64,000 nt of DNA. Source: an uncultured Pelagibacteraceae bacterium. GTDB taxonomy: Bacteria > Pseudomonadota > Alphaproteobacteria > Pelagibacterales > Pelagibacteraceae. The stretch covers positions 92,259 through 156,258 of the forward strand of contig CACNEM010000001.1 of NCBI GenBank assembly GCA_902619495.1. The letters are read 5' to 3'. A program made the translations under genes and the position numbers. The first letter of the stretch is position 1. The number at the start of each line of letters is the position of its first letter. Shown here in pieces: positions 37,290 to 41,152 of this stretch. The notes under the pieces are model-generated. The model saw only the letters and a list, made by a program, of their open reading frames with translations. It was not told the origin of the DNA and did no database searches.

Positions 37290-39842
37290 ATGAAAAAGAA
37301 AATAATAATAACAGGTGGATTAGGTTATATTGGCACTGAATTATGTAAACTTTATTCAGGAGTTAGTTGGAATCATGAAATAATTGTTATTGATAATAGA
37401 TTTATTTCTGAACGTATAAATCAACTACGAAACTGGAATATAGAATTTGTGCAAGGAGATATTCTTGATAGAGAACTTGTAACAAAATACTTTAAAGATG
37501 CAGATACTGTTCATCATTTAGCAGGAATTACAGACGTTCCAAGAGTAAAAAGTGAATCTTCTCAAATTCAAGATGAAAGAATAAAAGAAGTAGCTGAAAA
37601 AGGAACTCAAAATATTTTAGATATAATACCAAAAAAGTGTAAAATAATTTTTCCATCAACTCATGTTGTCTATGAGGGAATTAATGAGGTAAAGACCGAT
37701 ATTAAAGAAGAGGAAAAAACTAACCCAATTTTATCTTATTCAACATCTAAAGACATAAATGAAAAACAGTTAAAAAAATCTGGAAAAAATTTTGTAATTT
37801 TAAGGCTAGGATCAGTTTACGGTTATTCAACAGATACGATGCGTATGGATATCATGCCAAATTTATTTTCAAAAATTGCATCTCAAAACGGAACAATAAA
37901 AATGTTTGCAGGTGGTAGGCAGATAAAAAGTTTAGTGCCTTTAATTGATGTGGCGAGATGTTTTAAATTCATGGAGGAGAAAAATGAAATTAATTCTGAA
38001 ATTTTTAATCTCACAAAAGACACTATAACAGTTAAAGGAGTTGCTGAAATCTGCAAAAAATATAATCCAAAAATAAACCTCAAAGAAACTAATGATGAAA
38101 TTCCAAATTTAGGTTTTTCATTGTCTAATAAAAAATTATTAAATACAGGCTTTGAGTTTCTTTATAACTTAGATCAGAATATCAAAGAGATGATAGAGAA
38201 ATGGTCAAATCAAAATATTGTAAAAGATTTGGAGTACGTGAGAGATGGTGAAAACCTTTTTGTAGATAGTAGAGGTTCAATAAGCAATCATGAGTTGACT
38301 GAGCCCATTAATTTAATTGGATTAATTGAATCTAAAAAAGGAACTATTAGAGCAAATCATTATCACCCACAACAAGAACAAAAATGTTTATTTACCAAAG
38401 GTCAAATTATAGAAGTTTTTCAAGATATTTTAAATCCTGGTGCCCCAAAAATTACACAAGTTGTAAATGCAGGTCAGCTTTCGGTAATCAAACCAAATGT
38501 TGCGCATACAATGGTTTTTTCAAAAGATACTACATTTTTGAATCTAGTTAGAGGAGAAAGAGATCATGAAAATTATGGAATTACTCATACTATAAAACAT
38601 GTATTTGTAGATGAAAAAGAAAAAAACTTGTTATTAGGATGCTATAAATTTGAATGTAGATCATGTGGTAATCAAGATTTGAAGAGAGTCGTATCTTTAG
38701 GTTATCAACCTCTTGCAAATAATTTATTAAAAAAAAAAAATGATAAATGTGAACTTTATCCTTTAGAAGTTAATTATTGTAAAAAATGCCATAATTGCCA
38801 ATTATCAGTCTCAGTGGACCCAAAAAAAATGTTTTCAAACTACCTTTACACTTCATCAACCTCAAAAATATTTAGAAATCACTTTATTGATGCTGCAAAA
38901 AAATATTTAAAAGAATTAAAATTAAATAAGAAAAAATCTCTGATAATTGATGTTGGAAGTAATGATGGGGTTGCGTTAAAACCCTTTTTAGATATGGGTT
39001 TTAAAAATGTGCTTGGCATCGAACCTGCAAAAAACTTGGCGAAACTTGCTAATAAAAATAAGATCAAAACTTTCAATGGTTTTTTAGAGAAAAAAAACTT
39101 AAAAAAAATTAAAAAAAATGCGGACTTAATTTTAGCATCAAATGTTTTTGCACACTCCGATAAATTAAAAGAAATGGCTAATTGTATGCTTTCACTTTTA
39201 AGCAATAAAGGAACAATTATAATTGAAGTTCAATATTTAATGAATACCTTAAAAGATTTAACTTTTGATAATATTTATCACGAACATTATAATTATTGGT
39301 CTTTAACATCCTTAGTAAATTTTTTTAATCAATTTAACGCAAAAATAGTAAAATCAGAATGTGTAGATACTCATGGAGGATCACTGAGGATTTATATAAA
39401 GAAGGATAAAAAAGCAAAAGTCGATAAAAGTGTAAAAAAAATGCTTCAAGAAGAAGAAGATTTTGGCATAAAGAAATTTAAAACTTATAGAGACTTTGGA
39501 GAAAAAGTTTATAAAATCAGGGAAAACGTAAGAAAAAATATAAAAAAATTAAAAGAAAAAAATAAATTCATAATTGGATATGGTGCCCCAGCTAAAGCAA
39601 CTACTGCACTAAATTTCTTTAGAATATCAAATGAGATAGATTTTATTGTGGAAGATAATAAATTAAAACATAACAAATTTATTCCTGGAGTAAATATACC
39701 CATTCAAAGCAAATCAAAAGTTAAGAATAATGATAATACGCTTATTGTTTTAGCATGGAATTTTTTTAAAGATATTAAAAAAAATAATTTAAGTCTCTCG
39801 AATAATATAATTAATATTAAAGATCTTGAAGCTAATAAGTAA
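37290..39842 (+). CDS. fusion protein: NAD-dependent epimerase/dehydratase (SDR) + cupin + Zn-binding class I C-methyltransferase
   Basis: N-term ITGGLGYIGTELCKLY Rossmann SDR; middle NHYHPQQEQKCLFTKGQIIEVFQD cupin; C-term CRSCGNQDLKRVVSLGYQPLANNLL...CKKCHNC zinc site, LIIDVGSNDGVALKPF SAM motif, C-terminal C-methyltransferase domain. Confidence 0.88.
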   Translation: MKKKIIITGGLGYIGTELCKLYSGVSWNHEIIVIDNRFISERINQLRNWNIEFVQGDILDRELVTKYFKDADTVHHLAGITDVPRVKSESSQIQDERIKEVAEKGTQNILDIIPKKCKIIFPSTHVVYEGINEVKTDIKEEEKTNPILSYSTSKDINEKQLKKSGKNFVILRLGSVYGYSTDTMRMDIMPNLFSKIASQNGTIKMFAGGRQIKSLVPLIDVARCFKFMEEKNEINSEIFNLTKDTITVKGVAEICKKYNPKINLKETNDEIPNLGFSLSNKKLLNTGFEFLYNLDQNIKEMIEKWSNQNIVKDLEYVRDGENLFVDSRGSISNHELTEPINLIGLIESKKGTIRANHYHPQQEQKCLFTKGQIIEVFQDILNPGAPKITQVVNAGQLSVIKPNVAHTMVFSKDTTFLNLVRGERDHENYGITHTIKHVFVDEKEKNLLLGCYKFECRSCGNQDLKRVVSLGYQPLANNLLKKKNDKCELYPLEVNYCKKCHNCQLSVSVDPKKMFSNYLYTSSTSKIFRNHFIDAAKKYLKELKLNKKKSLIIDVGSNDGVALKPFLDMGFKNVLGIEPAKNLAKLANKNKIKTFNGFLEKKNLKKIKKNADLILASNVFAHSDKLKEMANCMLSLLSNKGTIIIEVQYLMNTLKDLTFDNIYHEHYNYWSLTSLVNFFNQFNAKIVKSECVDTHGGSLRIYIKKDKKAKVDKSVKKMLQEEEDFGIKKFKTYRDFGEKVYKIRENVRKNIKKLKEKNKFIIGYGAPAKATTALNFFRISNEIDFIVEDNKLKHNKFIPGVNIPIQSKSKVKNNDNTLIVLAWNFFKDIKKNNLSLSNNIINIKDLEANK

Positions 39843-40546: not shown

Positions 40547-40624
40547 GGGGGTGTAGCTCAGCTTGGTTAGAGCGCCTGCCTGTCACGCAGGAGGTCGCGG
40601 GTTCGAGTCCCGTCACTCCCGCCA
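40547..40624 (+). tRNA. tRNA-Asp (anticodon GTC), CCA encoded
   Basis: GGGGGTG/CACTCCC acceptor, CCTGCCTGTCACGCAGG anticodon arm, GCGGGTTCGAGTCCCGT T-arm. Confidence 0.97.
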
Positions 40625-40783
40625 CTAGTTGATAATGATTTTCATCTAGCCAGTTATAATTAAGCATAATTTGATCAACATAATGCTTCTATCTGTCCTG
40701 TACTCTTTAATAATAAATGTTATAAATATTACCTACTAATACAAGAATCCTTAAACTACGGTATTAAGGTAGGTATTAAAAAC
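40625..40783 (+). promoter_or_regulatory. structured spacer/5' leader of the nuo operon (candidate cis-regulatory RNA)
   Basis: Three consecutive inverted repeats: 40625-40649, 40662-40688, 40730-40775; last contains an alternative nested hairpin and the likely nuoA SD. Confidence 0.45.
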
Positions 40784-41152
40784 ATGATTTATAATTTTTT
40801 ATCAGAATATTTATCAATAATAATTTTTTTATTCATTGCTTTGTTCTTAAGCATTGGGTTTATATTAGCAAATTATTTAGCATCCCCATCTAATCCAGAC
40901 CCTGAAAAGTTGTCCGCTTATGAGTGTGGTTTTGAAGCATTTGACGACTCGAGAATGGAATTCGATGTAAGATTTTATCTAGTTGCAATATTATTTATAA
41001 TTTTTGATTTAGAAATAGCTTTTCTTTTTCCGTGGGCTATATCTTTAGGCAATTTAGGTGCATTAGGTTTTTGGTCAATGATGATTTTTTTAGCTATTTT
41101 AACAATTGGATTTATTTATGAGTGGAAAAAGGGAGCTTTAGAGTGGGAATAA
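40784..41152 (+). CDS. nuoA: NADH-quinone oxidoreductase subunit A
   Basis: [44 protein letters not shown]. Confidence 0.97.

Follow-up and report, generated by a model that had tools for sequence, protein, structure and literature searches.

A conserved RNA hairpin ahead of nuoA in two genera of Pelagibacteraceae: a candidate cis-regulatory leader of the complex I operon

In the ocean, SAR11 bacteria rank among the most numerous cells, and only few of their regulators are known. The question raised by the locus considered here is which of the pairings in the leader of their nuo operon, if any, is real, and what such a structure may do. A covarying RNA fixed at the head of this operon would place an additional, post-transcriptional layer of control on core respiration in SAR11. 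The stretch of DNA analysed (the window, 64,000 nt from an uncultured Pelagibacteraceae bacterium) contains nuoA, the first gene of the nuo operon, at 40784..41152 on the + strand (Pfam PF00507, Oxidored_q4, 137.6 bits), with nuoB-G downstream and the nuoA-G order supported by Pfam. The site examined is the 159-nt spacer between the tRNA-Asp gene (40547-40624) and nuoA. Elsewhere in the window, the translation of an 850-aa open reading frame (37290-39842), judged by eye, apparently combines three parts: the N-terminal one resembles a sugar-nucleotide epimerase, the middle one a cupin and the C-terminal one a methyltransferase.

The initial annotation of this spacer described a two-state regulatory leader, in which a 13-bp outer stem and a nested alternative compete and the outer stem masks the Shine-Dalgarno (SD) sequence of nuoA. 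Its coordinates and letters for both pairings are correct on re-reading the sequence: TACCTACTAATAC (40730-40742) is complementary to GTATTA (40761-40766) together with GTAGGTA (40769-40775), CCTTAA (40749-40754) is complementary to TTAAGG (40764-40769), and the two stems, as drawn, are mutually exclusive. Overlooked in that description was a second copy of GTATTA at 40773-40778, which offers TAATAC another partner; with this pairing, an outer stem can enclose the inner one within a single hairpin.

Architecture and comparative support of the hairpin

From the sequence comparisons described below, it is close to certain that the nuoA leader encodes a single conserved RNA hairpin of ~42 nt. A DNA search recovered the spacer from many genomes of the same genus. 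RNAalifold, applied to an alignment of 40 distinct leaders (A1) chosen by DNA similarity rather than structure, returned one hairpin with no structure supplied. All of its parts lie on the + strand. The basal stem P1 is formed by TAATAC (40737..40742; up to 8 nt, ATTAATAY, in relatives) and GTATTA (40773..40778), with 96-97% of P1 cells paired and a length that reaches 8 bp in relatives. Above it lies an asymmetric internal loop (consensus AAGAAY/UAG), of which the 5′ side, AAGAAT (40743..40748), is conserved, purine-rich and near-invariant in the alignment, and the 3′ side is TAG (40770..40772; TAC in part of the second genus). The upper stem P2 comprises eight pairs between CCTTAAAC (40749..40756) and GTATTAAGG (40761..40769), namely CCTTAA/TTAAGG plus AC/GT flanking the bulged A40763, and the purine run of its 3′ strand is the would-be SD. 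The apical loop, TACG (40757..40760), is of the UNCG type with a closing C-G pair; a census of apices gave CTACGG 43, CTTCGG 3, CCACGG 8 and CCTCGG 1, the remainder, which includes many relatives, being mostly pentaloops. To the -7.1 kcal/mol of P2, P1 contributes a further -3.1 kcal/mol (median); the internal loop and the bulged A are kept although neither brings a gain in stability.

The strongest support comes from the way in which P2 varies. A degenerate-pattern scan of named genomes found 108 stretches, of which 80 were listed; all 80 listed matches belong to Pelagibacterales, and nearly all to uncultured Pelagibacteraceae. Pattern-scan stretches and sequences from the genome searches together gave 116 distinct sequences of the element with nuoA, and the eight P2 pairs are present in 116/116, with the proviso that the pattern fixed pyrimidine and purine classes in P2, so that stem transversions would escape it. 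The alignment of 40 leaders carries no such bias, and there too each P2 pair is made in every sequence, while C-G, U-A and U-G interchange and A-U changes to G-C. Paired cells in this alignment amount to 98.4%, compared with 93.8% when partners are shuffled (0/500 shuffles as high), and fall to 35-47% when the partner is shifted by 1-3 columns. When the second genus is included, double changes occur at 7 pairs, a count matched by 4/500 shuffles. Under a tree-based null, in which substitutions were randomly re-placed on the nuoA tree and scored with an APC-corrected G statistic, P2 pairs rank 1st, 2nd and 3rd among 990 column pairs (E = 0.005, 0.015 and 0.105), and the pair ranked 4th lies outside the structure. 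P1 varies too little to be scored in this way; its support consists mainly of wobble changes and one covarying pair, and its Y-R pair 40742/40773 occurs as U-A, U-G and C-G. A conserved structure backed by compensatory changes, as expected of a structured cis-regulatory leader, is thus present, and what had been annotated as the "nested alternative", the core of P2, is the part that covaries strongly and through repeated compensatory changes.

Thermodynamic stability alone is uninformative in this region. RNAfold of 40625-40800 selects the 13-bp outer stem, but the predicted fold of these 176 nt is not more stable than those of shuffled versions (z = 0.08), and the window's element has a z of about -1.4. 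Folded in isolation, 114/116 elements adopt the conserved hairpin as their minimum-energy structure.

Two further observations concern the internal loop. The positions 40743/40772 (columns 9 and 40 of alignment A2) are mostly A-G and are G-C in five sequences of genus g9, hinting at a non-canonical core pair that may be replaceable by a Watson-Crick pair, as if P1 could be extended. Readings of the loop as a K-turn or a bulged-G motif were dropped, since key positions vary on inspection by eye.

Predicted promoter, transcript start and the competing fold

Upstream of the hairpin, the spacer contains a promoter-like motif. A -35-like box, CTGTAC (40698..40703, + strand), falls in a conserved block of the spacer alignment and stands 17 nt before the -10-like box in 82/119 distinct leaders; the latter is of the extended type (TGT-TATAAA, 40718..40726, + strand, hexamer 40721-40726), with TGN before TATAA in most of the 119 leaders, and its hexamer starts most often 15 nt upstream of the conserved block. 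A sigma-70 consensus scan did not report this promoter, because the scan demands T as the last base of the -10 hexamer. The motif predicts a nuo transcript start near 40733 (about 40732-40735), which would place the hairpin at the 5′ end of the mRNA, with P1 2-5 nt from it. A segment upstream of and overlapping the -35-like box (40682-40709, around TGCTTC..TCTGTCCTGTACTCTT) is strongly conserved genus-wide and may serve the predicted promoter as a site for an activator or a repressor.

The position of the start bears on the fold that is chosen. When folds were computed by start position, the 13-bp outer stem dominated in RNAs starting at 40731 or earlier, and the conserved hairpin accounted for 82% in RNA starting at 40732 and for 99% or more from 40733, so that the margin between the two competing folds is one or two nucleotides of start position. 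The proposed switching between the 13-bp outer stem and the inner stem, which would gate access to the SD, can draw on the genuine complementarity and on this preference at early starts. It requires, however, a start at or before 40731, where the conserved promoter-like motif predicts ~40733, and the comparative data do not bear it out: all 13 pairs can be made only in the window's leader among the 40 aligned, and the covariation of the stem equals the shuffle mean, as does its proportion of paired cells in the alignment (75.4%). Its 5′ arm TACCTAC (40730..40736, + strand) is not conserved, falls outside the conserved block and for the most part precedes the predicted transcript start or coincides with it. 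Moreover, A-U to G-C changes in P2 at 40755/40762 or 40753/40765 disrupt the competing pairing, the inner six pairs of which are kept in 91/116 sequences and broken in 25/116, as against 116/116 for P2. As the outer stem does not covary and is broken by compensatory changes in P2, the comparison points to one hairpin rather than two conserved states, and the conserved, mutually exclusive alternative pairing that marks the expression platform of a riboswitch was not found here; a simple opening and closing of P1 may nevertheless occur. The 13-bp stem looks like a coincidence of the window's genome, and with an SD that is itself not conserved, an alternating pair of stems is very unlikely. What survives of the initial proposal is a real, conserved RNA structure that takes in part of the ribosome-binding region and plausibly has a regulatory role; the two-state switch does not.

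Drift in the stem argues against a further reading of the locus, in which the inverted repeat would act as DNA, as an operator bound by a dimeric transcription factor. Although the repeat does lie directly 3′ of the promoter-like motif, the stem sequence changes while the pairing is kept, the many G-U pairs would be intolerable in a DNA site, the bulge and loop are asymmetric and the apex is of the UNCG type, all of which leaves this reading highly improbable.

Distribution and possible functions

Searched with a covariance model, the window's genome has one copy of the element, and each positive genome has one strong copy. Among 397 genomes of the order, matches are confined to two genera, both of Pelagibacteraceae; within the family, where 197 genomes were covered, true copies reach 51-72 bits and no other match exceeds 27. 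A sample of 289 genomes from across the class yielded no element besides the one of the window, and a pattern scan of viral contigs gave no match. No multi-copy regulon that might hint at a trigger was found, the five weak second matches inspected being within or antisense to coding sequence. In essentially all copies the element precedes nuoA, ~14-20 nt from the AUG, and this constant position and orientation before one gene is that of a cis-regulatory leader. Among the twelve congeners without the element that were checked, 11/12 also have no nuoA match, their assemblies being incomplete; G023 has nuoA and lacks the hairpin, which is therefore dispensable there. At the loci L040 / L091 (G023:C3), NuoA is 93% identical and the leader is without the hairpin; it may have been lost naturally, or the spacer may have another ancestry. 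In the sister genus g6, a -10-like TATATA occurs about 4-9 nt before the nuoA ATG in the genomes inspected (L094-L098, L208-L212, L214-L222), with a conserved TGTGAC box further upstream; from the closeness of TATATA to the ATG, the nuo mRNA is predicted to have no leader or almost none. This distribution suggests that the hairpin was acquired as a leader in the lineage of the two positive genera, or that other lineages lost it.

The tRNA genes are not always neighbours of nuoA. The tRNA-Val/tRNA-Asp pair and nuoA are ~2.5-3.4 kb apart in four genomes (G012:C31, G059:C1, G015:C8 and G026:C6). Where tRNA-Asp is thus kilobases away, the conserved segment accompanies nuoA, which speaks against taking the hairpin for a terminator or processing signal of the upstream tRNA-Val/tRNA-Asp transcript. 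Such a role would suit its location in the window, ~110 nt downstream of tRNA-Asp, but a U-tract is absent, a terminator scan finds no terminator, and the G+C-rich stem followed by a U-tract that defines an intrinsic terminator is not seen; this is the least credible of the explanations considered.

The hairpin lies over the zone where ribosomes would land. The SD-like AGGTAGG is present in the window, and the purine-rich P2 strand is mostly paired (about 0.3 unpaired in the model), as the idea of SD masking supposes; AGGTAGG is not conserved, however, and relatives mostly have RRRGTAGR. With an assumed 16S tail rather than that of this genome, the calculated strength of the SD match varies between -2.3 and -7.3 kcal/mol across sequences. 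The final G of the P2 strand stands 14 nt before the ATG in the window and about 14-20 nt in relatives. SD masking of the classical kind fits poorly with this wide range and with the distance of the P2 GG from the AUG (14-20 nt). What stays fixed is an AU-rich P1 next to the AUG, together with the internal loop and the A bulge of P2.

The hairpin probably affects either the translation of the first gene or the lifetime of the mRNA. The reading we prefer, at about even odds (a probability of roughly 0.5), is that of a 5′-terminal cis-acting hairpin of the nuo mRNA that would act on nuoA translation initiation through the A/U-rich P1 near the AUG. In this mechanism, the nuo mRNA would begin with the hairpin, the position of its 5′ end following from the promoter-like motif; the stable P2 would persist and present a candidate binding site; the weak P1 (about -3 kcal/mol net) would open and close where ribosomes land, immediately ahead of the AUG; and a protein or small ligand could shift the balance of P1, most naturally by way of the conserved internal loop. 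In its favour are the position of the element, its single nuoA-linked copy, the conserved loop and bulge, the covarying P2 and the conserved fold in transcripts from 40732 on; against it are the variable SD complementarity far from the AUG, the little variation in P1 and the case of G023.

The main rival is a 5′-terminal stabiliser that would shield the long nuo mRNA from 5′-end-dependent decay without targeting translation. The predicted start at ~40733 would leave few unpaired nucleotides ahead of P1, the stem is stable and bears a UNCG-type cap in many genomes, and nuoA heads a long operon, all of which such a role would use. For stabilisation, however, a stem alone would suffice, so that this role would account for the position at the 5′ end but not for the conservation of the internal loop and bulged A; the spacing between the -10-like box and P1 differs by several nucleotides; and the hairpin abuts the AUG, where hindrance of ribosomes would be expected. 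We regard this explanation as possible but unlikely. Somewhat more doubtful still is a compact sensor, in which the internal loop and bulged A would form a putative site for a metabolite or protein signalling the state of respiration or iron-sulphur status, and P1 next to the nuoA AUG would be gated accordingly. If true, complex I synthesis would be governed by an RNA sensor in two SAR11 genera, while the nuoA mRNA of a sister genus is apparently leaderless. The hairpin-bearing genera, the sister genus predicted to be leaderless and the one congener that has nuoA without the hairpin provide a natural comparison, and the well-supported structure makes tests by point mutation straightforward.

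Comparison with known systems

The leader stem-loop of E. coli ompA protects its mRNA from 5′-end-dependent decay. For the nuoA element, too, the promoter-like motif predicts a hairpin a few nucleotides from the 5′ end; the element differs from stabilisers of this type in its conserved unpaired core and in lying directly against the AUG. The iron-responsive element is likewise a small bulged hairpin near the mRNA 5′ end, with conserved unpaired nucleotides, a CAGUGN loop and a bulged C. The parallel is one of mechanism only, a small bulged hairpin near the 5′ end beside the initiation region; the nuoA element is bacterial, has neither the CAGUGN loop nor the bulged C, and is not a member of that family.

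As for catalogued bacterial families, the search of Rfam that had been recommended gave no known family for the nuoA leader: at the gathering score, matches of the window to Rfam 15, which includes nuoG (RF01748), are three tRNAs only, and a permissive scan of 40600-40900 yielded sub-threshold chance matches, none of them over 40737-40778. The hairpin is accordingly put forward as a candidate cis-regulatory leader RNA without a matching Rfam family. A search of literature available without subscription turned up no description of a leader motif before nuoA in SAR11. The survey of SAR11 by Meyer et al. 2009 (PMC2704228) tabulated spacers after removing those that contain tRNAs, and neither nuo nor NADH occurs in its text; the nuoA element was probably missed there because tRNA-containing spacers were set aside. 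The motifs of that survey, such as rhtB and pntA, are likewise small covarying spacer hairpins, mostly beside one gene, and the rhtB motif is a single bulged hairpin like the nuoA element; unlike the latter, none lies ahead of nuoA (PMC2704228).

Two systems concern another NADH:quinone oxidoreductase or nuoA itself. The nqrA-II motif (PMC11109978) is also a structured leader, directly ahead of the gene that opens an NADH:quinone oxidoreductase operon, but it has four conserved stem-loops, P1-P4, and belongs to a different enzyme, the Na+-NQR of Pasteurellaceae, whereas the nuoA element consists of one hairpin only. In E. coli, the sRNA RyhB controls nuoA at its ribosome-binding region (PMC6497325). 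RyhB is a trans-acting sRNA that pairs with the leader, whereas the SAR11 element is a cis hairpin with a covarying stem; what the two share is a site of post-transcriptional control, a candidate one in SAR11, at the ribosome-binding region of nuoA (PMC6497325).
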